A DNA stretch of 35,705 nt. Origin: Pirellulales bacterium. Lineage in GTDB: Bacteria > Planctomycetota > Planctomycetia > Pirellulales > JAEUIK01. The stretch is taken from the NCBI GenBank assembly GCA_019745975.1, contig JAIESQ010000128.1:1-35705 (forward strand), given 5' to 3'. Below are positions 715-16,115 of this stretch, piece after piece (within the stretch, counting starts at the first letter, position 1; the number at the start of each line of letters is the position of its first letter). The notes beneath the pieces are model-generated. The model saw nothing but the letters and a program-made list of their open reading frames with translations, made no database searches and was not told where the DNA came from. The position numbers were made by a program, and so were the translations under genes.

Positions 715-809
715 TCGGCTATAACTTCAGCTAGGGAGCAACCGCCGTCCAGGCGGCCGCCTCAAATCCCGCTGTCAAGAACCATCCATCGGATCAGGAG
801 GCTCGCGCC

Positions 810-2000
810 ATGAGACCACTTGTGCTCGTGACACTGTTGCAATTCTCGGCGATCACCGCCTGGGCGGCCGAGTTCGCAGCTCCCGTGCGCTTAGAAGCCG
901 GCGGCGCCGCCATTCGCGTCGACAGCCCTGGCTACGCTGCGCCATGCTGGGCCGACATCGACGGCGATGGCAAGAAGGACCTGCTGGTCGGACAGTTCGA
1001 CGGCGGCAAGATCCGCGTCTACAAGAATCTCGGCGACCGCCAACTCGCGGCCGGCGAGTGGCTCATGGCCGACGGCAAGGTAGCCGAAGTCCCAGGCGTG
1101 TGGTGATGCACGAGCTCGTGTCCACAGTTTGTGGACCTCGACGCAGACGGTTGCAAGGACATTCTCTCGGGATCGTACTCGCGCCACGGCCAGCCGATGG
1201 CAGGCTTGTTCCAGGTCCTGTGGGGTAAGCCCGACGGCACCTTCCGCGCGGCCGAAGAGCTCAAAGGCACCGACGGCCAACCGCTGGTCATTCCGCTGGG
1301 TCCCGGCGAGGACGCCTGGATCGACTGCATTTGCACCCGGCCCACGGCGATCGACTGGGATGCCGACGGACATCTCGACCTGGTCGTCGGCAACTTCACC
1401 GGCACCTTCTATCTCTTCAAGGGAGAAGGAAAAGGTCGCTTCCTGCCGAAGGGGGAATTGATCGAGACCGATGACGGCCCGCTCAAGATCAGTGGCCATC
1501 ACAGCGATCCGTTCGTCGTCGATTGGGACAACGATGGCGACCTCGACGTGCTCAGTGGATCGAGCGAAGGGGGCGTGCAATGGGCTGAGAACGTGGCGGG
1601 TCGCGGCGCCGCGCCGAAGCTCAAGCCATTTCAATCGCTGATCGAGAAGGCGGAGACTCGTGAATACGGTCGAGTCCTCGCCGAAGCCGATCTCACGGGC
1701 CCCGTTATGTCTACCCGCATTTGGGTCGACGACCTTAACGGCGACGGCAAGCTCGACATCCTGGTCGGCGACCTGGTGACGCTGGTCGCGCCTGCCAAAG
1801 GGTTGAGCGAAGCGGAGCTCAAGGAGAAGTACGCCGCGTGGCAGAAGGAATGGGATGCCGCGGTGGCCAAGCTCAATGCCGCGACCGACGCGGCTGCGAA
1901 ACAGGCGGCTAACCAACGCGTTCAGGATCTGTGGCCGGAGCGAAACAAGTTCTTGCAGGAGGAGATGACCGGCTTCGTCTGGCTCTATTTGCAGAAGTGA
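810..2000 (+). CDS. secreted FG-GAP/VCBS-repeat protein with an in-frame TGA (candidate selenoprotein)
   Basis: The start ATG 810 follows a perfect AGGAGG at 796-801. Residues 1-19 are a signal peptide ending AWAA. The body carries five calcium-binding FG-GAP-type loops: DIDGDGKKD, DLDADGCKD, DWDADGHLD, DWDNDGDLD and DLNGDGKLD. These are typical of beta-propeller surface proteins. One TGA at 1104-1106 (residue 99) splits the frame; reading resumes in the same frame and continues for 298 codons to TGA 1998-2000. The TGA is followed directly by a Cys codon, giving W-x-C-T-S-S-C, and by a hairpin described separately. Both halves keep repeat spacing and codon use, which argues against old decay. 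Read through, the protein is 396 residues. If TGA is a true stop, the product is a 98-residue fragment and the gene is a pseudogene. The C-terminal 80 residues form a Lys/Glu/Ala-rich helical stretch. The ligand or substrate is unknown. Confidence 0.75.
1104..1140 (+). promoter_or_regulatory. candidate bacterial SECIS element after in-frame TGA
   Basis: The UGA at 1104-1106 is followed after 13 bases by a perfect 7-bp stem, GUCCACA (1120-1126) with UGUGGAC (1130-1136). It closes a three-base loop GUU. An outer 4-bp stem CGAG (1111-1114) with CUCG (1137-1140) can extend it around a 5-base bulge. The UGA-to-loop distance is 20 bases and the first loop base is G. From memory, both match the loose bacterial SECIS consensus (about 16-37 bases from UGA to loop, G among the first two loop bases). 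A competing hairpin, CACG/CGUG at 1109-1120, exists. Role inferred, not shown. Confidence 0.45.
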
Positions 2001-2246: not shown

Positions 2247-3119
2247 CTAATAGCACGTGCGATCCCGGCTTCGCGGGTCGTCGGCGACGTCGCCGCTGTG
2301 CAAGCGCCCTTCGAGCGCCCGGTCGCGCCACGTGCCCGGCGCATCCCAAATGCTGGCATCGCGCCGCACTTCACTCACCAGCACGCCTGGCTCGTGCCAA
2401 CCAAGACGGCCAGTGACGAGCCCGTCGGGTTGGACGAAGAAGCTCGGCCAGAGCGAGTACTCCGCGGTGCTGTTCGTGGCGCTGATCCAGAAATAGTTCT
2501 GCGCCGCGGCGGCCATCATCACGGCTGGCACGACATCCTTCCACAAGTTGCCGTGCTCGAAAGTTTCGCGATCCTTGCGGGCATTGTGATACGAGTGCAA
2601 CAGCAGTTCGACGCCGCGCCGCTTGAGGTCGCGGAACAGCTCAGGAAAGCGATAGTCGTAGCAAATCAACAATCCGCAGCGAACGCCGTCGACCTCGAAT
2701 ACCGTGGCTTGATCGCCGGGCGTGTAATGGCACAGGTCGAGCGTGGGCTCCGGCCCCGCGACGCCGGTGCAGAAACGTTTGTCGTAGCGATCGACGATGC
2801 GTCCTTCGTCGGAGACGACGTACAGCGAGTTGTGGGGTTTGGCCGCGCCCGAAAGGCGATGGGCCGAGCCGACGACAACCCAGATGCAATGTCGCGCGGC
2901 AGCCGCGGCGATGGCTTCCATCCCAGCGCGCAAAGCGGGCCAATCGAATTGGTCGGAGCCAGGAAGATCGACGCCGGCATAGCCAGAGAGCGCCGATTCG
3001 GGGAAATGGGCGAGCCGCGCGCCGCGGGCAGCCGCTTCGGCGATCTGGCCGAGAATCGTGTCACGATTGCGGGCCACGTCGCCTGCGACCGCGAATTGGC
3101 ACGTGGCTACCTTGAGCAT
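2247..3119 (-). CDS. carbon-nitrogen hydrolase (nitrilase superfamily amidase)
   Basis: The protein has 290 residues, the usual size for the superfamily. The catalytic triad is visible at family spacing: Glu41 in HFPESALSG, Lys114 in DRYDKRF, and Cys153 in GLLICYDYRFPE. The family hydrolyses C-N bonds of amides or carbamoyl groups in the cytoplasm through a thioester at the cysteine. The specific substrate cannot be told. Residues around 175-215 (HSYHNARKDR and a Trp/Tyr-rich stretch) differ from omega-amidase and N-carbamoylputrescine amidase patterns as I recall them. No signal peptide. It is divergent from the molybdenum hydroxylase genes with a 214-base intergenic region between them, so any functional link is only positional. 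The C-terminal 25 residues are charged and probably unstructured. Confidence 0.9.
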   Translation of the reverse strand: MLKVATCQFAVAGDVARNRDTILGQIAEAAARGARLAHFPESALSGYAGVDLPGSDQFDWPALRAGMEAIAAAAARHCIWVVVGSAHRLSGAAKPHNSLYVVSDEGRIVDRYDKRFCTGVAGPEPTLDLCHYTPGDQATVFEVDGVRCGLLICYDYRFPELFRDLKRRGVELLLHSYHNARKDRETFEHGNLWKDVVPAVMMAAAAQNYFWISATNSTAEYSLWPSFFVQPDGLVTGRLGWHEPGVLVSEVRRDASIWDAPGTWRDRALEGRLHSGDVADDPRSRDRTCY

Positions 3120-3160
3120 GCGGACATTCCGCCTTCACAAACGACAATTTCGCGTTTTGG

Positions 3161-3188
3161 TTGAATCCGCAAATCGACCCGATACAAT
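3161..3188 (+). promoter_or_regulatory. candidate sigma-70 promoter for the molybdenum hydroxylase operon
   Basis: TTGAAT (3161-3166) and TACAAT (3183-3188) are separated by 16 bases, close to the TTGACA-17-TATAAT consensus. The site lies about 145 bases upstream of the Fe-S subunit start, leaving a long leader in which no structure was recognised. Prediction from sequence only. Confidence 0.4.
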
Positions 3189-3333
3189 CCACGGCATTCG
3201 ACGACCCGCGGGGTGTGGCATCCGCGGCGCCAAGGCATGGCGTCCACGTGTCGGCCCTGCGGCGGTCAAGCTCAAATCTAACATCCGTCGCGGCCCAGCC
3301 GCCAATTGCTTGCCTCGGGAGGTCCGCAGAACC

Positions 3334-3966
3334 ATGAAGGACTCACCGTACACGAATACCTCGCGCGGCGGTTTCAACCGCCGCGAGTTTCTGCGTGGCT
3401 CGGGCGCGGCTGCCGCGGCGACCGCGCTTGCCAACGGCGCCACGGCCGTCGCCGAAGCTGCCGAGAGCAGCGACACGATTCCGCTCTACGGCCCCGGCCT
3501 GACCAAGATCACGCTTAACGTCAATGGCCAGGATCGCCAGGTGCAGGTTGAGCCGCGGATGTCGCTTTTGGAGGTGCTCCGCAATCAGTTGCAACTGACT
3601 GGAGCTAAGCCGGTGAGCGTCGATGGCTCGAGCGGCGCCAGTTCGGTCTGGATCGACGACAAGCTCGCCAGCGCCAACACCGTGCTGGCCCTGACGTGCG
3701 TGGGGCGCAAAGTCCGCACGGTCGAATCGCTCGGCGGCCACAAGCTCGACGCCGTGCCGACCGCATTCCTGCACGAAGACGGCATGCAGTGCGGCTTCTG
3801 CACGCCCGGCTTTGTGGTAGCGGTGCGGGCGTTCTTGGACAAATATCCCAACGCCACCGAGGCGGAAATTCGCCAGGGGCTCAACGGCAATTTGTGCCGC
3901 TGTGGCACCTACGCCAACGTGATTCAAGCGTGTCTCGAAGTCGTGAAGGGAGGCGTCCGTGGCTGA
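3334..3966 (+). CDS. molybdenum hydroxylase small (Fe-S) subunit, lacking the N-terminal [2Fe-2S] ligands
   Basis: ATG 3334 is chosen because GGGAGG lies 11 bases upstream and the next residues form a Tat-type signal: NRREFLRG near residues 12-19, then an Ala-rich segment. The protein has 210 residues. A ferredoxin-like domain starts near residue 50 (ITLNVNGQDRQVQVEP). The family ligand pattern C-x2-G-x-C-G-x-C...C is present in shape but reads S95-V-D-G-S-S100-G-A-S103, with N115 at the fourth site, so no plant-type [2Fe-2S] cluster can bind normally. The C-terminal helical domain keeps its cluster: C153-GF-C156 and C188-R-C190. Such subunits carry electrons from the molybdenum centre to FAD. 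The stop overlaps the start of the next gene by 8 bases. A Tat signal on this subunit suggests periplasmic export, possibly of the whole complex, as for YagTSR-type enzymes. Confidence 0.92.
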   Translation: MKDSPYTNTSRGGFNRREFLRGSGAAAAATALANGATAVAEAAESSDTIPLYGPGLTKITLNVNGQDRQVQVEPRMSLLEVLRNQLQLTGAKPVSVDGSSGASSVWIDDKLASANTVLALTCVGRKVRTVESLGGHKLDAVPTAFLHEDGMQCGFCTPGFVVAVRAFLDKYPNATEAEIRQGLNGNLCRCGTYANVIQACLEVVKGGVRG

Positions 3967-6178
3967 GTATAGCTGGCCCAAACAAGGCACCGCGGCGCTC
4001 CTGGGGAGCGAACAAGACCGCATCGACGGCGTCGACAAAGCGACCGGCGCCGCCAAGTACAGCTACGACGTCGTGCTCGACCGCATGCTCATCGCCAAGG
4101 CGCTCGGCTGTCCGCACGCGCACTGCAAAGTCAAATCGATCGATGTCTCGGCCGCAAAAAAGGTGCCGGGGGTGGTGAGCATTCACCTGTTTATCGATCC
4201 TAAGGACGAGAAGAAGTCGGAAATCAAGTGGCAAGGCGACCCGATCGCATGCGTGGCCGCGGAGACCGAAGGCGCGGCAGCCGAAGGAGTCGCCGCCATC
4301 GAGGTCGCTTACGAAGTGCTCGAGCACTTTGTGAACGAGGAGTTTCTCGCCGCCGCCGAACGGGCCGGGCGCGTCGGCAAGGCGGGCGTTAATGTCGAAC
4401 TCGAGAACGAGCCGAGCGAAAATGAAGACGAAGACGCCTTCGTCGAGAAAGAGCTCAAGCGGCTCTACGACGAGTCGGCCGCTGTGGTCGAAGGCTACTA
4501 CGGCATTCATGCCATCACGCACATGTGCCTGGAGCCGCACGGCTCAACTTGCGCCTGGCAAGGTGACAAACTTACGGCGCATTTGTCGACGCAAAGCGTC
4601 TCGGGCACGGCCGGGCAGTTCGCCAGCCCGCTGAGTATGACCGCCGACGACGTGACGGTGCATTGCGATTTCATCGGCGGTGGCTTCGGCAGCAAGTTCC
4701 AGGCCGACGAATGGGGCGTGGCTTGCGCCAAGATCGCCAAGGAAACGGGCCGACCCGTCAAGCTGATGCTCGATCGCGACCTGGAATTGAAGGTCGCCGG
4801 CTGCCGGCCGTCGGGCTTCGTCAAGGTGAAAGTCGGCGCCGACAAGGACGGCGTCGTCAAAGTCTGGGATTCTACGCAATGGGGTACCGGCGGCGACCGT
4901 GGCGCGGCCGTCGACGAGAAGCAGATTCCCTACGTCTTCAATCCTCCGAATCGCCGCCGCTCGGCCGTGCGCGTCAGCACGAACACCGGGCCGACACGCG
5001 CCTGGCGCGCGCCGAACCATCCGCAGGCGTGCGCCATCTCGCAAACGGCGTACGACGACGTCGCGGCCAAATTGGGAATCGACAGCTACGACGTCTTCCT
5101 CCGCAACTTGCCCAGCGTTGCCAACAAAAAAGCGGATGTGTATGCCGCCGAAATGGAGATCGCCGCCAAGCTGATGGATTGGAAAGCCAAGTGGCACCCG
5201 CATGGCAAGGGTCCCGCCGAGGGCTCGATCGTCAGCGGCTTGGGGATGGCGATCCACACCTGGGGTGGTGGCGCGGTCGCCGGAAGCTGCACCGTGAAGG
5301 TCCATCCCGACGGCGGCGTCGAGACGTTCGCCGGCAGCCAGGACCTGGGGACCGGCACGCGCACCGTCATGGCGATGGTTGTGGCCGAAACCTTTGGTCT
5401 GCCCTTGTCGGCCGTCAAGGTGAACATCGGCAGCTCGAAATACCCGCAGGCCAATCCGTCGGGCGGCAGCATCACGGTCGGCAGCGTGAGCGAAACGCAT
5501 CGCCGCGCCAGCCAGGACGCACTGGCCAAGATCACCGCCTTGGTCGGCGAAAAGCTGGGCGTCGACGGCGCCGCGCTCGTGGCGCGCGATGGCCGCATCT
5601 ACGTCGACGGCAGCCCCGACAAGGGGGTCACCTGGGCCCAGGCGTGCAGCTTGTTGGGCATGAACGCCCTCGAAGTGCGCGGCGAATATGCCCCCAGCAG
5701 CAAGCGCTCGCCGCTGTCGAGCTCGGGCGTGGGGGGCGTGCAGATGGCCGAAGTGGCCGTCGATCGCGCCACCGGCGTGGTGAAGATGAAAAAGTTCGTC
5801 GCGGTGCAAGACATGGGGTTGGTCATCAACCGCCAGACCGCCAAGAGCCAGATGTACGGTGGCGTGATCATGGGCATCGCCTACGCGTTGTTCGAAGAGC
5901 GGATCATGGACCCGGCGACCGGCGGATTCGTGAATTCGCAGATCGCCGACTACCGCTTGCCGCGCTTGGGGGACATCGGCGAAATCGTCCTGGAAATCTA
6001 CGAACCGGAGAGTGAGTACAGCCGCGGCGTCGTTGGGCTCGGCGAGCCGCCGGTCATCAGCCCCGGCGCAGCGATTTCGAACGCCGTGGCCAACGCCTTG
6101 GGGGTGCGCGTGCCGGTGCTGCCGATCACACCGATGCGCGTGTTCGACGCGCTCGAGCGAGTGCCAAAAATGGCCTGA
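3959..6178 (+). CDS. molybdenum hydroxylase large subunit (xanthine dehydrogenase / aldehyde oxidase family, YagR-like)
   Basis: The protein has 739 residues, the typical length of a separate molybdopterin subunit. The N-terminal aldehyde oxidase a/b-hammerhead domain occupies roughly residues 15-125. The cofactor-binding domain follows, with GGGFGSK at residues 240-246, RAWRAPNHPQ near 340, GSQDLGTGTRT near 460, and the C-terminal GLGEPPVISPG motif holding the expected catalytic Glu696. The family hydroxylates aldehydes, purines or N-heterocycles at a Mo-pyranopterin centre. The substrate is not deducible. It lacks a signal peptide, so export would depend on the Tat signal of the Fe-S subunit. 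An acidic stretch (ENEDEDAF) near residues 155-165 is a mild oddity. It overlaps the Fe-S gene and precedes the FAD gene by 68 bases, so the three are probably co-transcribed. Confidence 0.95.
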   Translation: MAEYSWPKQGTAALLGSEQDRIDGVDKATGAAKYSYDVVLDRMLIAKALGCPHAHCKVKSIDVSAAKKVPGVVSIHLFIDPKDEKKSEIKWQGDPIACVAAETEGAAAEGVAAIEVAYEVLEHFVNEEFLAAAERAGRVGKAGVNVELENEPSENEDEDAFVEKELKRLYDESAAVVEGYYGIHAITHMCLEPHGSTCAWQGDKLTAHLSTQSVSGTAGQFASPLSMTADDVTVHCDFIGGGFGSKFQADEWGVACAKIAKETGRPVKLMLDRDLELKVAGCRPSGFVKVKVGADKDGVVKVWDSTQWGTGGDRGAAVDEKQIPYVFNPPNRRRSAVRVSTNTGPTRAWRAPNHPQACAISQTAYDDVAAKLGIDSYDVFLRNLPSVANKKADVYAAEMEIAAKLMDWKAKWHPHGKGPAEGSIVSGLGMAIHTWGGGAVAGSCTVKVHPDGGVETFAGSQDLGTGTRTVMAMVVAETFGLPLSAVKVNIGSSKYPQANPSGGSITVGSVSETHRRASQDALAKITALVGEKLGVDGAALVARDGRIYVDGSPDKGVTWAQACSLLGMNALEVRGEYAPSSKRSPLSSSGVGGVQMAEVAVDRATGVVKMKKFVAVQDMGLVINRQTAKSQMYGGVIMGIAYALFEERIMDPATGGFVNSQIADYRLPRLGDIGEIVLEIYEPESEYSRGVVGLGEPPVISPGAAISNAVANALGVRVPVLPITPMRVFDALERVPKMA

Positions 6179-6246
6179 GCGCAGCCGATCCAATTAGCCC
6201 TGAATACCAATCCAATACCAGCCCTTGTGGTTCAAGGACCGACACG

Positions 6247-7236
6247 ATGAAAGCGTTTTCGTTTGCAGCGCCTCGTTTCGAGTCAGAAGTGCTCGAGCTG
6301 CTGGGCGAGACCTGGGGCCAGTCTGAGATTCTCGCTGGTGGCACCGACCTGGTCGGCCTGATGCGGCAAATGATCGTCGCGCCCGAACGCGTGGTGTACC
6401 TGGGGAACGTCGCCGAGTATCGCGGCATCGAGGCCGATTCGGCCGGTGTGCGGATCGGCGCCATGTCGACGCTCGATGACCTGGCCGACAGCGCGGCGCT
6501 GGCTCCCTACGCGGCGGTCACCCAGGCGATCCGTGGCATCAACAGCATGCAGCTCCAGGCACAAGGCACGCTCGGCGGCGAACTTTGCCAGCGACCGCGT
6601 TGCTGGTTCTTCCGCAATGGCCACGGGCTGTTGGCCGATCGCGGCCGGCTGGTTGCCGAGGGAGACAACCGCTACCACGCCATTCTGGGCAACGACGGAC
6701 CGGCGAAGTTCGTCCATCCGTCGCGAGTCGCACCGGCGCTCGTCGCGCTGGGGGCGCAAGTGCGCCTCGCCGGCCCGACCGCGGAAGACGAGACGATTTT
6801 GCCGATCGAGTATTTCTTCCGTATTCCTCGCGACGAGAGCGAACGCGAAACGATGCTCCTGCCCAGCCAGGTGCTGACGCACTTGATGCTGCCGGCGGTC
6901 GATGGCGTGGCGAGCGCCACATACGAAGTGCGGCAGGGAGCAGGCCCCGACTACCCGCTCGCGGCGGCGGCCGCGGCGTTGCGGTTCGACGGACCGTACG
7001 TGCGCGAAGCGCGAATTGTGCTCGGCCACGCCGCGCCGATGCCCTGGCGCTCTGCCGCCGCGGAACGCGCGATGATTGGCCTGCCGGTCACACCCGAAAC
7101 GGTCAAGGCCGCCGGCGAAGCGGCCGTGGCCGCCGCGACCCCATTGGCGAGCAATCGCTACAAGGTGCAATTGGCCCGCGTCAGCGTCGAGCGGGCCCTG
7201 CTGATGGCCGCCGGCCTGGAGACGGGCGGGTTTTAG
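6247..7236 (+). CDS. molybdenum hydroxylase FAD-binding (medium) subunit
   Basis: The protein has 329 residues. An FAD-binding PCMH-type domain is shown by AGGTDLVGLMRQ near residue 34 and GAMSTLDDL near residue 75. GTLGGELCQRPRCWFFRNG near residues 101-119 is the flavin pyrophosphate loop in its YagS-like version. The C-terminal CO dehydrogenase flavoprotein domain follows to the end. In the normal enzyme FAD accepts electrons from the plant-type [2Fe-2S] cluster, which the partner subunit here appears to lack. Two cysteines (CQRPRC) in the flavin loop recall the YagS loop, which binds a [4Fe-4S] cluster, but the downstream cysteines of that motif are not seen. It is the third gene of the hydroxylase operon. 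Confidence 0.93.
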   Translation: MKAFSFAAPRFESEVLELLGETWGQSEILAGGTDLVGLMRQMIVAPERVVYLGNVAEYRGIEADSAGVRIGAMSTLDDLADSAALAPYAAVTQAIRGINSMQLQAQGTLGGELCQRPRCWFFRNGHGLLADRGRLVAEGDNRYHAILGNDGPAKFVHPSRVAPALVALGAQVRLAGPTAEDETILPIEYFFRIPRDESERETMLLPSQVLTHLMLPAVDGVASATYEVRQGAGPDYPLAAAAAALRFDGPYVREARIVLGHAAPMPWRSAAAERAMIGLPVTPETVKAAGEAAVAAATPLASNRYKVQLARVSVERALLMAAGLETGGF

Positions 7237-7281
7237 ATCTACGCTTCGATCCTCAGGCCAACCAACTTCGAGGACACAGCC

Positions 7282-7515
7282 ATGCCGTTTCGTCGCAGTA
7301 GCGAAGAAGAGCAGGTCGCCGGTCCGGCCTGCATGCACTTGCGCTCCAAGGGGATGTACATGACCGGCAAGATGACCCCCTCGCACGAAGTCGACGGTGT
7401 CGGCGACGGCTACTGCTGGTGCAATCGCACGCAGAAGCAGCAAGGTCCCGACAGCCAGTGGGTCGATCGCGTCAATTGCGTCGAGGGGCGCGAGTGTTTC
7501 GAGACGATCTTTTGA
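7282..7515 (+). CDS. small cysteine-containing hypothetical protein
   Basis: The protein has 77 residues, with ATG 7282 preceded by GAGGA. There is no signal peptide. Five cysteines occur, including C-W-C near residues 45-47 and two near the C-terminus (NCVEGRECFE). The spacing could suit a small metal site, but I do not recognise a named family. Codon use and the strong ribosome binding site support a real gene. It follows the FAD subunit by 45 bases and is followed by a hairpin, so it is probably the last gene of the hydroxylase operon. A maturation or accessory role would be a guess from position. Confidence 0.65.
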   Translation: MPFRRSSEEEQVAGPACMHLRSKGMYMTGKMTPSHEVDGVGDGYCWCNRTQKQQGPDSQWVDRVNCVEGRECFETIF

Positions 7516-7554
7516 TCCGCGGCTGGTCGCAAGGGGAGCATTGCAAATTGGCAG

Positions 7555-7582
7555 GCCCAGGGGCTGCGACCCCTGGGCTTAT
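7555..7582 (+). terminator. stem-loop, probable terminator after the hydroxylase operon
   Basis: GCCCAGGGG (7555-7563) pairs perfectly with CCCCTGGGC (7570-7578) around a six-base loop, followed by TTATT. The stem is strong but the U-tract is weak, so termination efficiency is uncertain. It sits 40 bases after the small protein gene and before the SGNH hydrolase. Confidence 0.5.
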
Positions 7583-7639: not shown

Positions 7640-8380
7640 ATGAGCTCACGTCGATTCCGTTTCTCGGTTCGTTGCTTTTATGTCGCCGTCGCGCTCACCG
7701 CTTTCGCGACGTCGTTCGGGCAAGCCGAAGAGCCGCCGCGGCACTCGGCCGTCACACCAGCCCCGCGCCCGGGCGACTGGATGAAGCTGCACGAGAGCTT
7801 TAACGAGCGCGCCAAGCAAGGCGACGTTGAACTGGTCTTTCTGGGCGACTCAATCACACAAGGCTGGGCCGACAACGACACCTGGAAGAAATACTACGTC
7901 CGGCGTCACGCGGCGAATTTTGGTATCGGCGGCGACCGCACGCAGCACGTGCTGTGGCGCATCGAGCATGGCAATTTCGACGGCATCAAGCCCAAGCTCG
8001 TCGTGCTGATGATCGGCACCAACAACTCGAACGGTTCCGACAACACCGCCGAGGAAATCGCCGACGGCATCAAGGCGATCGTCGGCCAACTTCGCGAAAA
8101 ACTGCCCGACACCAAGGTGCTCCTCTTGGCGATTTTCCCACGCGGCGAGCAACCCAATCCGCAGCGCGAGAAGAACGCCAAGGCCAGCGAATTGGCCTCG
8201 AAGCTGGCCGACGGCAAGCACGTCTTCTATCTCGATATCGGCCCGAAGTTCCTGGCGGCCGACGGCTCGCTCTCCGCGGACATCATGCCCGATCACCTGC
8301 ACCTCAGCTCGCGCGGTTACGAGATTTGGGCGGAGGCGATCGAGCCGCAGGTGAAGAAGTTGCTGGGCGAGAACGAATAG
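7640..8380 (+). CDS. secreted SGNH/GDSL-type hydrolase
   Basis: ATG 7640 is chosen because AAGGGA precedes it and a signal peptide follows at once (basic SSRRFRFSVRC, then a hydrophobic stretch, cleavage near residue 27). The same frame is open further upstream but there overlaps the previous gene and the hairpin. The mature protein has the SGNH blocks: VFLGDSITQG (nucleophile Ser), GIGGDRTQHVLWR, IGTNNS (block III Asn), and DHLHLS near the end (catalytic Asp-x-x-His). It resembles the platelet-activating-factor acetylhydrolase-like lipase/esterase group common in Planctomycetes, which deacylates lipids or removes acetyl groups from polysaccharides. It is convergent with hicA, 10 bases away. 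Confidence 0.92.
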   Translation: MSSRRFRFSVRCFYVAVALTAFATSFGQAEEPPRHSAVTPAPRPGDWMKLHESFNERAKQGDVELVFLGDSITQGWADNDTWKKYYVRRHAANFGIGGDRTQHVLWRIEHGNFDGIKPKLVVLMIGTNNSNGSDNTAEEIADGIKAIVGQLREKLPDTKVLLLAIFPRGEQPNPQREKNAKASELASKLADGKHVFYLDIGPKFLAADGSLSADIMPDHLHLSSRGYEIWAEAIEPQVKKLLGENE

Positions 8381-8390
8381 CGACAGGATT

Positions 8391-8597
8391 CTAGAGGTCG
8401 CTGTCAATGAGTCCGGCGTCTTTCATGATTGCTTGCTGCGTGCCAGGTTTCAGATCCTTGTTTGCATGCACAGGAACGATGATTGTCTTCGGGGTGCCCG
8501 GTTTCTGATACGCGTGATGACTTCCCTTGACGCGTTTGCAAATCCATCCATAGCGCTCGAGGATCCGGCACATCCGTTTGCCAGAAACCGGCTTCAT
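8391..8597 (-). CDS. hicA: HicA-type toxin (YcfA-like mRNA interferase)
   Basis: The protein has 68 residues, the normal HicA size. The double-stranded-RNA-binding-like fold is recognised from KPVSGKRMCRILERYGW, the catalytic-His motif KGSHHAY near residues 24-30, and the IIVPVHANKDLKPGT stretch. HicA toxins cleave mRNA; the partner HicB neutralises them. The ATG overlaps the TGA of hicB by four bases (ATGA), giving translational coupling with antitoxin first. Confidence 0.93.
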   Translation of the reverse strand: MKPVSGKRMCRILERYGWICKRVKGSHHAYQKPGTPKTIIVPVHANKDLKPGTQQAIMKDAGLIDSDL

Positions 8598-8809
8598 AGC
8601 TCAATTTCCTGCAGTTCGGCGCCAGGCTCCGCGGCTTGTGCCTCGCTTGCCGCGCGGTCGGCAGTGACTTCCATCCACAGACCCGCCGCTTCGCGGATGT
8701 TCGCCAAGGCTTCCTCCAAGGTGTCGCCTTGCGAATAACAGCCAGGCAGCGCAGGTACGCTCACCGAGAATCCGTCCGCTTCAGGACGTACGAGCACTTT
8801 CAAGCGCAT
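8594..8809 (-). CDS. hicB: HicB-type antitoxin
   Basis: The protein has 71 residues from ATG 8809, chosen over the upstream in-frame TTG 8836 because CAGGAG lies six bases before it. The HicB partial RNase-H-like fold shows as LKVLVRPEADGFSVSVPALPGC, then SQGDTLEEALANIREA. No DNA-binding extension (HTH or ribbon-helix-helix) follows, only an acidic Glu/Ala tail, so autoregulation by this HicB alone is not obvious. It lies 23 bases after the nucleotidyltransferase gene, with which it may be co-transcribed. Confidence 0.9.
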   Translation of the reverse strand: MRLKVLVRPEADGFSVSVPALPGCYSQGDTLEEALANIREAAGLWMEVTADRAASEAQAAEPGAELQEIEL

Positions 8810-8832
8810 GGGTCGCTCCTGCAAATCAACAT

Positions 8833-9432
8833 TCAATCGTCGGGATGATCGAGCAGCTCCTGCAAGCGGGCGCCGAGCTCCCCAGGCAGCCGCGGTACCC
8901 AGCTCGCGTCGACAAGGCCCACTTCAATCAGATCGAGTACGTGTACCTGATCCTTGCGGCGGAACGACGTGAGTTTCATCCGCAGCAGGGCTGGCAGGTC
9001 GAGCACCCGGAACGTGGAGGTGGGTTTCACTTCATCAACGTCCGGCGCCAATTGCGTGCAGTCAGCACGAACGCGCTCATTGGCGAACAAGATATGCACG
9101 GCATCGCGAGCTTTGGCCTCGGGCCCGTCGAGAAACATGTCGATGCCCGACGAATGCCGATAGACGAAACCGGCTGCGGCCAAGGCCAACTTCGAGCGCT
9201 CGAAATCGCCGCGACGAATCAGCAGGTCAACGTCCTGCGTATTGCGAACGGCCGCCTCGTCGACCTCGCTAACCCAAGCGGCCACGGCATTGCCGCCAGC
9301 GACGGCATACGGGATACCCGCCGATTCCAGTGCTTGCGCGGCGCGGCGCAGGCGGTCGCGAACCTTCTCCACGGCGGTCACCATCCGTTCCCAGGCAGCC
9401 GATGAAACGACATGTGTATTCAAACGGAACAC
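8833..9432 (-). CDS. nucleotidyltransferase-fold protein (AbiEii/MNT-like)
   Basis: From GTG 9432 the protein has 199 residues. An in-frame TTG at 9480 would add 16 residues but begins two bases from the mature tRNA end, so I prefer the shorter form. The motif YAVAGGNAVAAW near residues 36-47 followed by TQDVDLLI matches the polymerase-beta-like GG...DxD core (metal-binding DVD). Later KLTSFRRKDQVHVLDLI resembles the region in AbiEii-type proteins that carries a conserved Lys and Asp. Family members are toxins, antitoxins or tRNA/nucleotide modifiers. No specific substrate can be assigned. It is placed between tRNA-Met and hicBA on one strand. Confidence 0.85.
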   Translation of the reverse strand: MFRLNTHVVSSAAWERMVTAVEKVRDRLRRAAQALESAGIPYAVAGGNAVAAWVSEVDEAAVRNTQDVDLLIRRGDFERSKLALAAAGFVYRHSSGIDMFLDGPEAKARDAVHILFANERVRADCTQLAPDVDEVKPTSTFRVLDLPALLRMKLTSFRRKDQVHVLDLIEVGLVDASWVPRLPGELGARLQELLDHPDD

Positions 9433-9481
9433 TCCCGAGTCAGTCGTCCGGCGAATTCGTCGGGGAATAGAAAGAACCAAC

Positions 9482-9554
9482 TACGCCCGGATGGATTCGA
9501 ACCAACAACCTGACAGGTTATGAGCCTGCTGCTCTACCGTTGAGCTACGGGCGC
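9482..9554 (-). tRNA. tRNA-Met (anticodon CAU), elongator-like
   Basis: Read on the minus strand, the 73 bases fold as a cloverleaf. The acceptor stem is GCGCCCG/CGGGCGU with a G1-U72 wobble. The D stem is GCUC/GAGC. The anticodon stem is GCAGG/CCUGU with loop CUCAUAA. The variable loop has six bases. The T arm has loop UUCGAAU and one U-U mismatch in the stem. The discriminator is A and no CCA is encoded. The initiator hallmarks (unpaired 1-72, three G-C pairs next to the anticodon loop) are absent, so it is elongator Met. A lysidine-modified Ile tRNA is the alternative. Confidence 0.93.
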
Positions 9555-9666
9555 GTAAGTCTTGGCGATCGCGAAGCAAGAGGTACTGCGGTCGCCGCGA
9601 ACCTTACTATAACGCGCGACCGCGAGGCTGTCGGCCGTCGCACGATCGATCCCGCGGCAAAGGCGA

Positions 9667-9861
9667 CTACGATTCGTCGAGCTCGCCGTGCCCGTCGCCA
9701 CGCGATTCCTCGCCGTCGTTCGACGACGCCACGTGCGGAACCGAGTGTTTTTCGCCCAGCCAGCGCCCCAAATCAATCTGCTGGCAGCGTGCGCTACAAA
9801 ACGGCGGCGCGGGCGTAGCCTTGATATCAACCGGCCCGCCGCACATCGGGCAGCGCGGCAA
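9667..9861 (-). CDS. yacG: YacG-family zinc-binding protein (DNA gyrase inhibitor type)
   Basis: Start TTG 9861 gives 64 residues, the usual YacG length, and follows AGGAG with seven bases of spacing. The frame is open further upstream but that part is Arg/Ala repetitive. The zinc site is C4-P-M-C7 ... C22-S-A-R-C26, followed by the family hallmark QIDLGRWL. E. coli YacG binds GyrB and inhibits gyrase; whether this protein does so is inferred from family only. The tail is acidic and His/Gly-rich. It follows the FmdB-like gene by about 90 bases on the same strand. Confidence 0.88.
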   Translation of the reverse strand: MPRCPMCGGPVDIKATPAPPFCSARCQQIDLGRWLGEKHSVPHVASSNDGEESRGDGHGELDES

Positions 9862-9952
9862 TTTCGTTCTCCTGCCCGACGAATCCACGCCTGGCGCCTC
9901 CGCGACTTGCTGGCCAACCGCCGAGTACGTAAGTGGCTCGGCGGCAAGGATT

Positions 9953-10282
9953 CTAATCGCCCTTCGACGAACCCTTCTTGCCGCCCGAACTCTTCTCGCC
10001 GCCAGCGCTCTTCTCGCTCTTCGAGGTTTTTTCACCGCCACTGCCGCCCTTGTCGCTACTGGCCGGCTTGTCCGCCTCGGCCCGCTTCTTGTACGAGTCG
10101 CTACGATAGTCGGTGGTGTAAAAACCCGAGCCCTTGAAGACGATCGCGGCGCCGGGCCCGATCAGGCGCCGCAGCTTCTTCTTCTTGCACTCGGGGCACT
10201 TTTTCTCGGGATCGGCCGTGATCGACTGGAACAACTCGAACTTGTGTCCGCAGGCGTCACATTCGTAGTCGTAGGTGGGCAT
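9953..10282 (-). CDS. FmdB-family zinc ribbon protein
   Basis: The protein has 109 residues. It begins MPTYDYECDACGHKFE and continues with KKCPECKKKKLRRLIG, giving a CxxC...CxxC zinc ribbon in the first 40 residues. An aromatic segment (GSGFYTTDYRSDSY) follows. The last 45 residues are a Lys/Ser/Gly-rich low-complexity tail, probably disordered and perhaps nucleic-acid binding. FmdB-type proteins are named from a formamidase-operon regulator, but their general function is unsettled. It lies 61 bases after grpE, so it may belong to the chaperone transcription unit. Confidence 0.9.
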   Translation of the reverse strand: MPTYDYECDACGHKFELFQSITADPEKKCPECKKKKLRRLIGPGAAIVFKGSGFYTTDYRSDSYKKRAEADKPASSDKGGSGGEKTSKSEKSAGGEKSSGGKKGSSKGD

Positions 10283-10343
10283 ACGCGGCCAGGCTCCTCA
10301 ATGTTCCGATGCACGTTCCAGCGAGATTGCGCGACCTACTGGC

Positions 10344-10880
10344 TTACTCGGGCGCCTTAGAAACGATCGCGTGCGACGGTCGAATCACGCGGTCGTGCAA
10401 CTGGTAACCATCCTGCGCGACGAGCAGCACCGTGCCCGGCGGCACATCGGCGCTGGGCTGCTGTGCGATCGCCTGGTGCAAATGCGGATCGAACGGCTTG
10501 TTCAGCGCCTCGATACGCTTGCAGCCATGCCGGGCCAAAACGTCATCGAGCTGCCGGGCGACCATTTTGAAGCCTTCGAGCAAGCCGGCCCCTTCGGGAC
10601 TTTTCTCGGCGGCCGCGATCGCCCGCTGCACGTTATCGATCACGCTCAGCAGTTCGACCAGCAGCGGCTGGGCCGCGAAGCGGCGCTCGTCCTCGATCTC
10701 GCGCTGCACGCGCTTGCGATAGTTGTCCAGTTCGGCGCGGGCGCGCAGGGCGCGATCGTTGGCTTCGGCAACCTGAACCTGCAAGTCGATGTCGTCTGAT
10801 GGTTCGTTGGTCGCTGGTGCCGCGTCGCCTGGCGCTGCGTCGCTAGCTGCTGTGCGATCGTGCGCTTCGGATGAGGTCAC
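10344..10880 (-). CDS. grpE: GrpE nucleotide exchange factor
   Basis: The protein has 178 residues from GTG 10880, three bases after the dnaJ stop. An acidic disordered N-terminus is followed by a long coiled coil (ALRARAELDNYRKRVQRE...) and the C-terminal beta domain with the family signature around NPFDP-like NKPFDPHLHQAI, then VLLVAQDGYQLHDRVIRPSHAIVSK. GrpE drives ADP release from DnaK. No dnaK is in this window, so its partner is encoded elsewhere. Confidence 0.95.
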   Translation of the reverse strand: MTSSEAHDRTAASDAAPGDAAPATNEPSDDIDLQVQVAEANDRALRARAELDNYRKRVQREIEDERRFAAQPLLVELLSVIDNVQRAIAAAEKSPEGAGLLEGFKMVARQLDDVLARHGCKRIEALNKPFDPHLHQAIAQQPSADVPPGTVLLVAQDGYQLHDRVIRPSHAIVSKAPE

Positions 10881-10883
10881 GTG

Positions 10884-12032
10884 TCAATCCTCCGTCGTTT
10901 CGGCTTCATCAGCGGCGCTGAAATAGTCGCGTAGCCGCTCCAGAAAGCTCTTGCGATGCGGCGATACGTTGGCGTGCTCCTCGTCGGCCAGCTCGCGCAA
11001 CAGCTCCTCCTGACGCGGGGTGACGCGCTTGGGCACTTCCAACTGCACTTGTACCAGCAGGTCGCCCACGCCGCGATGATGGGGATCGGGCATGCCCCGG
11101 CCGCGGAGCTTGAATACTTCGCCCGGCTGCGTCCCCGGCGGGATAGTCAACTCCTCACGACCGTCGAGCGTGGGCACTTCGATCTGCGCACCCAGCGCGG
11201 CTTGCGGATAGCTCAGCGGCACCCGCACGATCAAGTGCTGCCCTTCGCGTTGGAATAGCGAATGTTCGCGGACGCCGATGATGCAGTAGCAATCGCCGCG
11301 CGGCCCGCCGGTGGGGCTGGGTTCCCCCTCGCCATCGAGCCGCAGCCGCGTGTCGTTGTCGACCCCCGCCGGAATCCGCACTTCGCGGCGCACCCGCTGC
11401 AAGCGGTAGCCGACTCCTTCGCACTCTGGGCACGGATGTTTGATCACGCTGCCGGCGCCCTGGCAGGCGGGGCAAGTCGTCTGCATGCGGAAGACGCCGC
11501 TCGCCTGCACTACTTGCCCGCGGCCGCCGCAATACCGGCACGTCTCGGGTTTGTGCCCCTTGGCGGCGCCGGTGGCCTTGCATGCCTCGCACTTTTCGTG
11601 GCGCTCGAACTCGATGGTCTTGGTCGCGCCCCGCGCGGCTTCCAGCAGCTCGAGCATGATGTGGCAACGCACGTCGCCGCCACGGCGCTGGCGGCTGCCG
11701 CGGCGCCCGCCGCCGAACAGATCGCCGAACATGCTGTCGCCGAAGATATCGCCAAAGGCGGCGAAGATGTCGTTGACATCGCCAAAGTGCGGACCAGCGC
11801 CGCCATCGATCCCCGCCTGCCCGTAGCGATCGTAGCGGGAGCGCTTCTCCGAGTCGTGCAGGACTTCGAATGCCTCGGCTGCCTCTTTGAAGCGAATCAC
11901 GGCCTCTTCATCGCCGGGATTGCGGTCGGGATGGTACTGGAGGGCGAGCCGGCGGTAGGCCTCGGCGATGACCTTCTGATCGGCCGAACGCTCGACGCCC
12001 AAGACTTCATAGTAATCGCGTTTGGACGCCAT
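10884..12032 (-). CDS. dnaJ: DnaJ co-chaperone
   Basis: The protein has 382 residues from the ATG at 12032, which gives the family N-terminus MASKRDYYEVLGV. An in-frame ATG three codons upstream at 12041 is possible, and neither has a clear ribosome binding site. Domains in order: J domain with the catalytic HPD (YHPDRNPGD, residues 31-39); Gly/Phe-rich linker to about residue 110 (FGDIFGDSMFGDLFGGG); four zinc-finger repeats CEACKATG, CRYCGGRG, CPACQGAG and CPECEGVG near residues 147-206; and two C-terminal substrate-binding domains. It is a type I DnaJ that loads clients onto DnaK and stimulates its ATPase. It is immediately upstream of grpE. Confidence 0.96.
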   Translation of the reverse strand: MASKRDYYEVLGVERSADQKVIAEAYRRLALQYHPDRNPGDEEAVIRFKEAAEAFEVLHDSEKRSRYDRYGQAGIDGGAGPHFGDVNDIFAAFGDIFGDSMFGDLFGGGRRGSRQRRGGDVRCHIMLELLEAARGATKTIEFERHEKCEACKATGAAKGHKPETCRYCGGRGQVVQASGVFRMQTTCPACQGAGSVIKHPCPECEGVGYRLQRVRREVRIPAGVDNDTRLRLDGEGEPSPTGGPRGDCYCIIGVREHSLFQREGQHLIVRVPLSYPQAALGAQIEVPTLDGREELTIPPGTQPGEVFKLRGRGMPDPHHRGVGDLLVQVQLEVPKRVTPRQEELLRELADEEHANVSPHRKSFLERLRDYFSAADEAETTED

Positions 12033-12205
12033 AGTGGGCATGGAAAGAGCCGAACTCTCAAATGGTTCGCCCAGGAATTATAGGTCTGTCAGCGCGTGGC
12101 GTTGAGGGGAGTTTTTCCAGCGGCGAGCGAGCGAGTCCGTTTACCGTGGGGTGAATTGTGCTTGTTCGTCGACGGTGCTGTCCTCACGTGGACCGATTGG
12201 CGCCG

Positions 12206-12245
12206 AAAAACGGGGCCATCCTCCAGTCGGCTGAAAGATGACCCC
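12206..12245 (-). terminator. Rho-independent terminator after groEL copy 1
   Basis: On the minus strand GGGGTCATC pairs with GATGGCCCC (nine pairs, one U-G) around a 16-base loop that can itself form CAG/CTG pairs. It is followed by GTTTTT. It lies 50 bases past the groEL stop and separates the chaperonin genes from dnaJ-grpE. No gene is visible in the remainder of 12042-12292. Confidence 0.7.
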
Positions 12246-12292
12246 GCAAGTTCAAACTGCCGCCCCCTGCCAGGGCCGCCAACAGCCGCCAG

Positions 12293-13909
12293 CTAGCGGA
12301 CGCTCCCCTCGATCTTCTTGCCTTTGGCCTCTTTGTCGATGTTCGTGACCAGGGCTTCGGTGGTAAGCATCAAGCCGGCGATGCTGGCCGCGTTGGCCAG
12401 GGCACTGCGCACGACCTTCAAGGGATCGATGATGCCCGCCTTGAGCATGTCGACGTACTCACCCTTGTAAGCGTCGTAGCCGACATTGCCCGACTTCTGG
12501 CTCACCTCGTCAGCGACGACCGAGCCGTCGATGCCGCAGTTGTCGGCGATCTGTCGCAACGGCCAGTCCAGGCAGCCCAGCACGATGTCGGCGCCGATCC
12601 GCTCGTCGCCACGGCACGAGCTGCGGGCTTTTTCGACCGCCTCGTGGCAGCGCAACAGGGCCACGCCACCGCCAGGCAGAATCCCCTCTTCGACCGCTGC
12701 CCGCGTGGCGTGCAGGGCGTCTTCGACGCGCGCCTTCTTCTGCTTCATGTCGGCTTCGCTATTGGCGCCGACCGAAATGATCGCCACGCCACCGGTGAGC
12801 TTGGCCAACCGCTCCTGGAACTTCTCGCGGTCGTACTCGCTCTCCGTGGCTTCGATCTGATTGCGAATCTGTTGAATCCGCGCCTGGATGTCGCTCTGCT
12901 TGCCGGCGCCTTGGATAATCGTGGTGTCGTTCTTGTCGACCTTGACCTGCTTGGCGCGCCCCAGGTGCGAGAGCGTCAGGTTCTCGAGCTGGATGCCCAG
13001 GTCTTCGCTGATCAGCGTGCCGCCGGTGAGCACGGCGATATCGCCGAGCATGGCCTTGCGGCGATCGCCGAAACCAGGCGCCTTGACCGCGCAGATATTC
13101 AGCACGCCGCGCAGCTTGTTAACCACCAGCGTGGTGAGGGCCTCGCCTTCGATGTCTTCGGCGATGATCAACAGCGGCCGGCCCGTCTGGCTCACCTGCT
13201 CGAGAATCGGGATCAAGTCGCGCAGGCCGCTGATCTTCTTCTCGTGAATCAGCAGGAAGCAATCCTCGAGCACGCACTCCATCGTGGCCGGGTGATTGAT
13301 GAAGTAGGGGGAAATGTAGCCCTTGTCGAACTGCATCCCCTCGACCAGCTCGAGCGTGGTATCGGTTGCTTTACCTTCCTCGACCGTGATCACGCCGTCT
13401 TTGCCGACGCGCTCGACGGCATCGGCCAACAGGTCGCCGATCGTGCGGTCGTTGTTGGCACTGATCGCGCCGATCTGGGCGATCTCTTCCTTGCTGGTGA
13501 CCGGCTTGGCCATGCCGCGCAAGTGCTCGATCGCCGCGTCGACCGCCTTGTCAATCCCCCGGCGAACCGCCATCGGATTGCTGCCGGCGGCGATCAGGCG
13601 CGCCCCTTCCTTGAAGATCGCGCGGGCCAGCACGGTGGCCGTCGTGGTGCCGTCGCCAGCGACGTCCGACGTCTTCGAGGCGACTTCGTTCACCAGCTTG
13701 GCCCCCATGTTCTCGAAGGGGTCTTCAAGCTCGACTTCCTTGCTGACGGTGACGCCGTCCTTGGTAACGGTCGGGCCGCCGAACGACTTGTCGATGATCA
13801 CATTGTGCCCCGTTGGGCCCATCGTGATCGCCACGGCGTTGGCCAACTTGTCCACTCCCCGCAGCATCTTGGCGCGGGCCTGATCTTCGAACAGCAATTG
13901 CTTGGGCAC
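12293..13909 (-). CDS. groEL: chaperonin GroEL, copy without Gly-Gly-Met tail
   Basis: The protein has 538 residues from GTG 13909, chosen because AAGGAG lies nine bases upstream and the product starts [17 protein letters not shown], matching GroEL N-termini. Landmarks are [33 protein letters not shown] (ATPase core), [35 protein letters not shown], and [13 protein letters not shown]. It ends [16 protein letters not shown] without the Gly-Gly-Met repeat tail that lines the central cavity in housekeeping GroEL. It is therefore a divergent second copy, perhaps with special clients or regulation. It lies downstream of groES by 131 bases that contain a dispersed GC-rich repeat. Confidence 0.96.
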
Positions 13910-13940
13910 GGCGTTGCGCTCCTTGGTTGGTTTTTCTGCA

Positions 13941-13983
13941 TTCCCCCCGCTCCCTTGGCGGGAGAGGGGTTGGGGGTGAGGGG
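13941..13983. repeat. dispersed GC-rich intergenic repeat
   Basis: The segment contains GGGAGAGGGGTTGGGGGTGA, a sequence I recognise as a common intergenic repeat in many high-GC genomes, preceded by CCGCTCCCTTGGCGGGAG, a small inverted repeat. It sits in the groES-groEL gap on the untranslated leader of the second groEL. Its role is unknown; it could form a structured leader. Confidence 0.5.
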
Positions 13984-14039
13984 GCAAGCGTCCGGGACGA
14001 TTTGGGTCACCTTGGCCGCTTGCACCCCAGTGTTTATGA

Positions 14040-14342
14040 CTAGCTGAGGACCTTGGCCAGGATGTCGCTCTCGCGAAGGATCTTCACGTCGCGCCCGTCG
14101 ACTTCGATATCGGTGCCGGCGTACTTGCCGAAAATCACCTCATCTCCGATCGCCACCGATAGCTCGCCGCGATCGCCGCTGTCGAGCACCTTGCCCGGCC
14201 CGACCGACAACACGGTGCCGCGCTGGGGGCGCTCCTTGGCGGTGTCCGGCAGCACGATGCCGCCGGCGGTCATCTCTTCGGCCTCGAGCGGTTCGACGAC
14301 AACGCGATCATCGAGCGGACGCAGCTTCAAGTCTTTGGCCAT
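14040..14342 (-). CDS. groES: co-chaperonin GroES
   Basis: The protein has 100 residues. It shows the Cpn10 beta-barrel pattern: [37 protein letters not shown] (mobile loop around residues 20-33), then VGPGKVLD, and [30 protein letters not shown]. It caps GroEL rings. It sits between two groEL genes, 78 bases after the upstream one. Confidence 0.97.
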
Positions 14343-14420
14343 GATTCGTATTCCTGTTGGATTGTTTGTTTCGGGTAAGTGATCGATTGCCAGGCGGTCG
14401 GGTAATTTGGCTGGCGCGGC

Positions 14421-16115
14421 TTACATCATGCCGCCCATGCCACCCATTCCGCCCATGCCCATGCCGCCCATGCCACCCATTCCGCCCATGCCGTGGTCGT
14501 CGTGGTGATGGCCGCCGCCGGCGTCCTCTTCTTCCTTGGGGATTTCCGTGACCAGCGCCTCGGTCGTCAGCAGCAGGCCGGCAACACTCGCGGCGTTCTG
14601 CAGGGCGACGCGCACGACCTTGGCCGGGTCGATGATGCCAGCCTGCACCAGATCGGTGTACTGATCCTTATCAGCGTCGTATCCCTCGGTCTTCCCCTTG
14701 AGGTGACGCACGCGATTGACCACCACGGCCCCGTCATGCCCGGCGTTCTCGGCAATGTATCGCAGCGGCATGTCGAGTACGTGACGAAGGATGCTGACGC
14801 CGAACTTCTCGTCGCCGACCGGCTCGACCTTTTCGAGGGCCTTTTCGCAACGGATGAGCGCCACACCACCGCCAGGGACGACCCCCTCTTCGAGCGCCGC
14901 TTGGGTGGCGGCCTTGGCGTCTTCGATGAGCGCCTTGCGCTCCTTCATTTCGGTTTCAGTCGCGGCCCCGACCGAAATCTGGGCCACGCCGCCGGCAAGC
15001 TTTGCCAGTCGCTCTTGCAGCTTCTCGCGGTCGTATTCGCTGTCGGTGACCTCGATCTCCTGGCGGATCTGCTCGGCGCGGCCGTCGATATCAACCTTCT
15101 TGCCCGCGCCGCCAACGACCGTGGTGTTCTCGGCGCTTACGACAATCCGCTTCGCCGAGCCCAAGTCGGACAACTTGACCGACTCGAGCTGGATGCCCAG
15201 GTCCTTGAAAACCGCCGTGCCGGAGGTGAGCACGGCAAGGTCTCCCAGCATCGCCTTGCGGCGATCGCCGTAGCCCGGCGCCTTGACCGCGCAGACGCTG
15301 AGGATGCCGCGCATCTTGTTGACTACCAGCGTGGCCAGTGCCTCGCCTTCGACATCCTCGGCGATGATCAGCAGCGGCTTTTTCGCCCGGCTGACCGCTT
15401 CCAACAGCGGCACCAGGTGCTTGGCGTTGGAGATCTTTTCCTCGTAGATGAGGATCAGGCAGTTCTCGAGCTCGACCGTTTGATCGTCCTGATCGGTGAC
15501 GAAGTGCGGCGACAAGTAGCCGCGATCGAACTGCATCCCCTCGACCACTTCAACCGTGGTCTCGGTTTGGCGGCCTTCTTCAACCGTGATCACGCCATCT
15601 TTGCCGACCTTGAAGAAGGCGTCGGCCAGCACGGCGCCAATCGTGGGATCGTTATTGCCCGCGATCGTGGCGACTTGGGTGATTTCGCGCTTGTTCTTGT
15701 CGTTGATCTTGGTGGCCAGCTTGCCGATCGCTTCGACAACCGCGTCGACCCCCTTGAGGATGCCGCGCTGCAAGGCCATGGGGTCGGCCCCGGCGGCGAT
15801 CATCCGCAACCCTTCGCGGTAGATGGCGTCGGCCAGCACAGTCGCAGTCGTGGTGCCGTCGCCGGCGACGTCGTTCGTCTTGCTGGCGGCTTCCTTGACC
15901 AACTGGGCGCCCAGGTTCTCGTTCGGATCTTCCAGGTCGATGTCTTCGGCGACCGTCACGCCGTCTTTGGTGACCTTGGGGGAGCCCCAACCCTTGTCGA
16001 GCACCGCGTTGCGGCCACGGGGACCGAGCGTGCTGCGGACCGCGCGAGCCAGCTTGGCGACGCCAGCCGCCAACGGCCGCCGCGCCTCGTCGTCGAAGAC
16101 AATCTGCTTAGCCAC
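14421..16115 (-). CDS. groEL: chaperonin GroEL, housekeeping-type copy with Gly-Gly-Met tail
   Basis: The protein has 564 residues from GTG 16115, preceded by AGGAG and giving [18 protein letters not shown]. The frame is open 28 codons further upstream but without GroEL similarity. It has all family landmarks, including [49 protein letters not shown], and [15 protein letters not shown]. The C-terminus is acidic, then His-rich ([10 protein letters not shown]), and then a run of GGM repeats. It is the first gene of the chaperonin group. No CIRCE inverted repeat (TTAGCACTC-N9-GAGTGCTAA) was found upstream. Confidence 0.97.

Follow-up and report, generated by a model that had tools for sequence, protein, structure and literature searches.

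The closest described systems are the bacterial selenoprotein families, of which 119, counted for prokaryotes, are named in Table 1 of PMC13188914 (2026). The gene considered here shares with them an in-frame UGA, a SECIS element 3' of it and homologues with cysteine (Cys), and likewise sel genes in the genome and a nearby Cys as a possible redox partner. The bacterial SECIS model, as given in the same source, allows a loop of 3-9 nt, a stem of 4-16 bp, a G in loop position 1 or 2, a spacing of 16-37 nt and an energy of at most -7.5 (PMC13188914). On the side of the protein, the product shares the conserved Asp-rich blade motifs of the FG-GAP repeat proteins (PF13517, PF01839), its match to PF13517 (FG-GAP_3) scoring 89.7 bits and thereby passing the curated cut-off of 26.9.

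The gene lies in a stretch of 35,705 nucleotides from a Pirellulales bacterium, which as a whole is called here the window. It runs on the plus strand from an ATG at 810 to an ordinary TGA terminator at 1998-2000 and encodes 396 residues if the single further in-frame TGA, at 1104-1106 (residue 99) and followed by TGC (Cys), is read as selenocysteine (Sec). An earlier note, made from the letters of the window, had described one TGA interrupting an otherwise intact 396-codon FG-GAP gene with an AGGAGG, which direct reading and the PF13517 match confirm, and had placed a Cys codon directly after the TGA, which agrees with the TGC at 1107-1109 and with Cys in 96 of 97 family members. The features of the gene are as follows.

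796-801, plus strand: Shine-Dalgarno AGGAGG, 8 nt 5' of the ATG, read directly from the sequence
810-2000, plus strand: putative selenoprotein CDS; PF13517 match, homologues open across the same span with the UGA read through
810-869, plus strand: signal-peptide-like N-terminus, residues 1-20, from the translation and family hydrophobicity
945-947, plus strand: codon of Cys46, blade 1; Cys in 15 of 48 aligned members
1104-1106, plus strand: putative Sec codon UGA, residue 99; 94 UGA and 3 Cys among 97 distinct members
1107-1109, plus strand: codon of Cys100, vicinal partner of Sec99; 96 of the 97 distinct members have Cys, locus L136 has Arg
1120-1136, plus strand: putative SECIS hairpin with a 7-bp stem and a GUU loop at 1127-1129; supported by its position across the family, the synonymous control and an exchange at the pair 1124/1132
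1332-1334, plus strand: codon of Cys175, in the entry loop of blade 3; 27 of 48 aligned members have Cys
1500-1502, plus strand: codon of His231, in the entry loop of blade 4; 26 of 48 aligned members have His

We consider it very probable that the gene encodes an exported FG-GAP propeller selenoprotein, in which Sec99 is inserted by way of SelB, tRNA-Sec and a SECIS element and the TGA at 1998 acts as the stop. The UGA at 1104-1106 would be decoded as Sec by SelB with tRNA-Sec, the SECIS hairpin 13 nt 3' of it would direct this decoding, and translation would end at the ordinary TGA at 1998. The product would be exported and would adopt an FG-GAP beta-propeller fold, probably of five blades, in which Sec99 and Cys100, adjacent and nearly invariant, would most likely act as a selenol/selenenylsulfide redox pair. 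The reading of the UGA as Sec, already put forward in the earlier note, is strongly supported by the UGA column, the family hairpin and the sel genes, all of which come from sequence comparison; decoding in the cell, export and chemistry are what we infer.

The product and its Sec99-Cys100 site

The first 20 residues of the window protein look like a signal peptide, and 85 of 96 members have a hydrophobic 12-mer ahead of the domain, as against 7 of 96 control segments inside it, which suggests export. An AlphaFold2 model calculated from a 48-row alignment (pLDDT 92.9, pTM 0.90) has the propeller fold, and its best matches are propeller proteins. Asp anchors at residues 49, 109, 182, 238 and 308, each conserved in 47 or 48 of the 48 members, probably mark five blades and hence a five-bladed protein. 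The best matches in VIA-align are GH62/GH43 enzymes (Z up to 19.7, 266 residues, rmsd 3.5), which are themselves five-bladed propellers, and Foldseek ranks PVL-type lectins and CRTAC1 highest, at low TM-scores (0.35-0.37). A toxin identity was rejected: the Pfam matches to TcdB_toxin_midN and to BBSome propellers, all below cut-off, and the Foldseek matches to Tc-toxin B chains probably reflect the shared FG-GAP-type repeat.

The earlier note had proposed a surface position for the Sec-Cys pair; by alignment of the repeats, Sec99 and Cys100 belong to the entry loop of blade 2, 10 and 9 residues ahead of its anchor. Cys175 (27/48) and His231 (26/48) each stand 7 residues ahead of the anchors of blades 3 and 4, respectively; Cys46, Cys175 and His231 are each missing from many of the 48 members. 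The blade-entry loops bearing Sec99-Cys100, Cys175 and His231 could therefore lie on one face of the propeller, and Sec99-Cys100 could form a redox or soft-metal centre there. The earlier note had also pointed to the second Cys of the motif W-U-C-T-S-S-C; this residue is present as C104 but is not conserved, being Cys in 3 of 48 aligned members, and C104 was accordingly rejected as the partner of Sec99.

Within the selenoprotein reading, a variant of appreciable though lesser likelihood than the redox pair is that Sec99-Cys100, in the entry loop of blade 2, serves metal (soft-metal) or metalloid binding, or forms a structural vicinal selenenylsulfide, and takes no part in redox catalysis. Vicinal C-U and U-C motifs do occur in metal-related families, namely MerB-like SaoL, MbdU and the CopZ type, in the table of PMC13188914, and Cys and His in equivalent loops of neighbouring blades would fit a metal site, whereas the extra ligands vary (Cys175 in 27 and His231 in 26 of 48) and no conserved neighbour gene pointing to a metal was found. 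With the redox pair still preferred, a broader proposal is quite possible, although we advance it tentatively: the family might represent selenoenzymes of a new, extracytoplasmic class, FG-GAP propellers of five blades whose entry loops together form a redox or soft-metal centre around the Sec-Cys pair. Sec would then be nearly obligatory in what would be the phylum Planctomycetota, with Cys taking its place only rarely.

Gene neighbourhoods were compared by clustering open reading frames (E 1e-12) from 34 sequences, the window and 33 loci, among them L091, which holds the sel genes rather than a family member. The largest cluster, of 33 loci, is the family itself, and the next three, of 27, 22 and 8 loci, are taken to be antisense or shadow frames of the family gene. 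In the remaining clusters, of at most 5 loci, four of them near-identical Verrucomicrobiota-type contigs, no conserved neighbour or operon partner was found, and the neighbourhood consequently yields no clue to function. Individual loci have features recognisable by eye. One UGA-form member (L157, genome G516) is flanked on both sides by sulfatase-like frames. On the minus strand of the window, at 12293-16199, two groEL-like genes (12293-13987 and 14421-16199) enclose a groES-like gene (14040-14342), and only the second groEL-like gene has a Gly-Met-rich tail. On the plus strand, 3058-7236 reads, again by eye, as a molybdenum-hydroxylase-type set.

3058-3966, plus strand: small subunit with a Tat-like leader
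3959-6178, plus strand: large subunit
6247-7236, plus strand: FAD-subunit-like

The UGA column and its association with selA

The query for the phylum-wide search was the window protein with Cys replacing Sec; stops were read through and counted, and TGA was not selected for. Family matches were found in 78 of the 294 sampled genomes of the phylum, and the tabulated ones that span residue 99 contain exactly one TGA each, except in genomes G181, G188 and G238. The profile was built from 40 rows picked for having U or C at the column and C directly after it, a rule that excluded just L059 and L061-L072; all 30 loci from the 294-genome search have U or C and then C. A scan of genome_contigs gave 23 loci, of which 10, from planctomycete- and Verrucomicrobiota-type records, have UGA at the column, and 13 (L059, L061-L072) are remote FG-GAP proteins with a gap (9) or another residue (4) there and were not counted. 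In the phylum to which the genome of L053 (Akkermansiaceae) belongs, 2 of 288 genomes matched, one being the query's own, with one TGA each. A tblastn search of plasmids returned 27 records, all below 60% identity, and the annotated ones among the 10 listed are generic FG-GAP or VCBS proteins. The closest relative of the window protein is L050, from a Planctomycetia bacterium, at 73%.

Altogether 133 loci were scanned; 130 had a match and 120 covered the column, the 10 that matched but fell short of it being remote loci. Collapsing 22 loci with an identical 75-nt stretch and removing, from 99 distinct places, L072 (a 65-residue match with Ser) and L093 (a cut copy of L029) left 97 distinct members. 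The earlier note had proposed aligning homologues to see whether the column is UGA or Cys: it is UGA in 94 of the 97 and Cys in 3, written TGC in L043 and L045 and TGT in L044. Cys is the only residue other than UGA at the column among the 97, Trp never occurring, and Sec, on this reading of the UGA, is the rule in the family. A Cys codon comes next in all of the 97 but one: the sole exception to the Sec-Cys pair, L136 (G158:C58:100-1800), has UGA followed by CGC (Arg) and a strong hairpin of -12.7 kcal/mol. An additional member outside the 97 reads L-D-A-G-U-C. L029 (G155) carries, on the minus strand at 1477-2694 and 2770-4041, two UGA-form paralogues in tandem, both of which have a UGA and a hairpin of their own.

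These counts bear on two accounts that dispense with Sec. That the gene is a pseudogene or a product of sequencing error, in which a single base of a Cys-Cys propeller gene has changed and turned a Cys codon into a stop, is extremely improbable: TGC or TGT becomes TGA in a single step and Cys-Cys homologues exist (L043, L044, L045), but sequencing error is untenable when 94 of the 97 distinct members, drawn from many assemblies, share the identical TGA, and we reject the one-base alternative; in addition the frame past the TGA runs to the C-terminus common to the family, the family hairpin exceeds its synonymous control and the UGA form is associated with selA. We give equally little credence to a regulatory stop, at which a short product would end and a second would begin from an internal start such as the GTG at 1131; an internal frame of 289 codons does exist at 1131-2000, but the Cys forms read straight through the column, nothing other than Cys replaces the UGA among the 97, and the second fragment alone would lack blade 1.

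On the reading of the UGA as Sec, the distribution of selA is in keeping with that of the UGA form. selA was found in 72 of 74 UGA-form genomes as against 121 of the 220 others (Fisher p 1e-13, without correction for kinship), selA being frequent throughout the sample (193 of 294 genomes). The two UGA-form genomes in which selA was not detected, G173 and G212, each have a completeness of 77%. Two Cys-form genomes are without selA and the third, G188, has it. The column was verified in fetched loci for 67 of the 74 UGA-form genomes; the status of G033, G035, G058, G112, G140, G199 and G254 comes from the count of one TGA alone, and G204, in which the match falls short of residue 99, was excluded from the UGA-form set. 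Likewise, all 9 genomes tested behind the UGA loci from genome_contigs have selA; these represent the 10 loci with L058 left out, and one of them, G302, is the same genome as G025. A tree of 90 rows forces at least two separate changes between Sec and Cys, with L043 and L045 as sisters of UGA members and L044 placed among UGA members; the Cys forms likely arose by change from Sec to Cys, on a tree rooted by midpoint only.

The hairpin and the decoding machinery

In the window the stem GUCCACA/UGUGGAC pairs 1120-1126 with 1130-1136 (7 bp) around the loop GUU at 1127-1129, with an energy of -8.4 kcal/mol and with 13 nt from the UGA to the stem and 20 nt to the loop; the stem length, the loop and both distances agree with the earlier note. 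This hairpin lies within every limit of the SECIS model in PMC13188914. Against shuffled sequences, the window segment has a z-score of -1.05, with 27 of 200 shuffles folding as well or better, and on that account the hairpin was rejected as evidence on its own; its significance, as judged by comparing sequences, becomes apparent only at the level of the family. The loop of the best allowed hairpin lies 19-20 nt past the UGA in 90 of the 94 UGA members; in the other 4 that hairpin is elsewhere. An energy of -5 kcal/mol or lower is reached by 82 of 94, compared with 18.5 (sd 3.3, maximum 26) in synonymous simulations, and one of -7.5 kcal/mol or lower by 46 of 94, compared with 5.4 (sd 2.1, maximum 11); 48 of 94 thus fall short of -7.5 kcal/mol by this contiguous-stem measure. 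In each of the 100 simulations the protein sequences were left unchanged and synonymous codons were sampled from within the respective gene, and this control is the main evidence for the hairpin.

Pairing was analysed in 88 distinct 45-nt segments, the sequence counts not being counts of independent events. The conserved core pairs 1121-1125 with 1131-1135; three stem pairs are intact in 88 of 88 segments and a fourth, 1121/1135, in 80, while the stem ends vary (1120/1136 paired in 52 of 88, 1126/1130 in 34 of 88). The pair 1124/1132 is A-U in 65 segments, G-C in 17, G-U in 3 and C-U in 3. Sixteen of the 17 G-C segments have the codons CCG (Pro) and GCG (Ala), as opposed to CCA and GTG (Val) in the A-U form, so that pairing is retained despite a change in the protein. 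In the RNAalifold consensus just 4 bp remain (-5.2 kcal/mol), and the covariation term is +0.40, a positive value being unfavourable by the sign convention of that program. By mutual information two non-stem positions rank first (0.64) and 1124/1132 second (0.57). In the three Cys forms 1123/1133 is C-C, the hairpin is absent at the place it occupies in UGA members, and the best one lies at another place.

The genome of the window (G000; 204 contigs, 99.94% complete, 1.11% contamination) was searched for selA, selB, selC and selD, as the earlier note had recommended, and all four were found in a single cluster on contig C111, in the order selD (386 bits), selB (349), selA (545) and selC (66.5) and on one strand.

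L091 (G000:C111:14000-27299), 7845-12593, minus strand: compact selD-selB-selA-tRNA-Sec cluster, from bit scores and ARAGORN

ARAGORN identifies the selC RNA as tRNA-SeC with the anticodon TCA. Two more RNA matches, at 48.9 and 48.3 bits, lie barely above the tRNA-Sec cut-off and are presumably other long-arm tRNAs. We take SelD of this genome to have Cys rather than Sec at its active-site position. Beside tRNA-Sec in L091 is a 1364-residue frame (3464-7558), the end of which is cupredoxin-like by eye.

Sec appears to be used elsewhere in the same genome. On the minus strand of L162 (G000:C180:62500-66500), at about 1141-2478, an FmdB frame (TIGR03129, 502 bits against a cut-off of 327.8) has an in-frame TGA within H-T-S-L-U-H-G-P; a frame reading like FmdA follows it. 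PMC13188914 gives UHxP as the motif of the known selenoprotein formylmethanofuran dehydrogenase subunit B, and PMC4807772 reports an fmdB selenoprotein in another planctomycete. Since the TGA falls within U-H-G-P of a family known for UHxP, this seems to be a second, independent Sec-using gene. A search of the genome for Sec formate dehydrogenase gave 10 matches, none above cut-off, and the TGA-containing match of this type is actually FmdB.

With this machinery in place, it is most implausible that the UGA is read as some other amino acid, through an altered code or general read-through and without Sec: the conserved C-terminal part does require read-through, but the gene's own terminator is TGA, the substitute at the column among the 97 is Cys and never Trp, the genome has all four sel genes, and the hairpin tracks the UGA and is missing at that place in the Cys forms.

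Comparison with known systems

Compared by name, none of the 119 prokaryotic families in Table 1 of PMC13188914 is an FG-GAP, VCBS or propeller family, in line, as far as these names go, with the remark of the earlier note that the class is not usually listed among selenoproteins. NCBIfam gave four matches at E up to 1, all under cut-off and none named selenoprotein, and none of the NCBIfam models cited in the table of PMC13188914 matched the window protein. No description of an FG-GAP selenoprotein family was found in the titles and opening abstract lines of open-access papers, although S9 Table of PMC4807772, which holds planctomycete candidates, might name it. The bacterial selenoproteome would in this way gain a family, in a fold class absent by name from the 2026 table; of the 294 genomes sampled from the phylum, 78 contain the family, and 74 of these are classed as UGA form. 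Annotation that takes the UGA as a stop would render these genes truncated or broken.

Unlike the listed selenoprotein families, the FG-GAP family has few Cys forms (3 of 97), and because they are rare, prediction based on Cys homologues may miss it; the limit of leaning on such homologues is stated in the deep-Sep paper (PMC12013277). CRTAC1, integrin alpha, ITFG2 and PVL lectin are among its best solved relatives by sequence or Foldseek, and the 13 remote FG-GAP proteins differ from it in having a gap or another residue at the Sec column. With the propeller glycosidases GH43/GH62 it shares the fold, at 6-16% identity among the 50 matches listed; Pfam at E up to 1 returned no glycoside hydrolase family and, only below cut-off, a lambda-carrageenase propeller domain, and the shared fold shows no function. 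One question is why an apparently exported protein retains a costly and easily oxidised selenol. Set beside the known systems, the mechanism of decoding is a familiar one, and what is new is the family, the fold class and the near-obligatory use of Sec.
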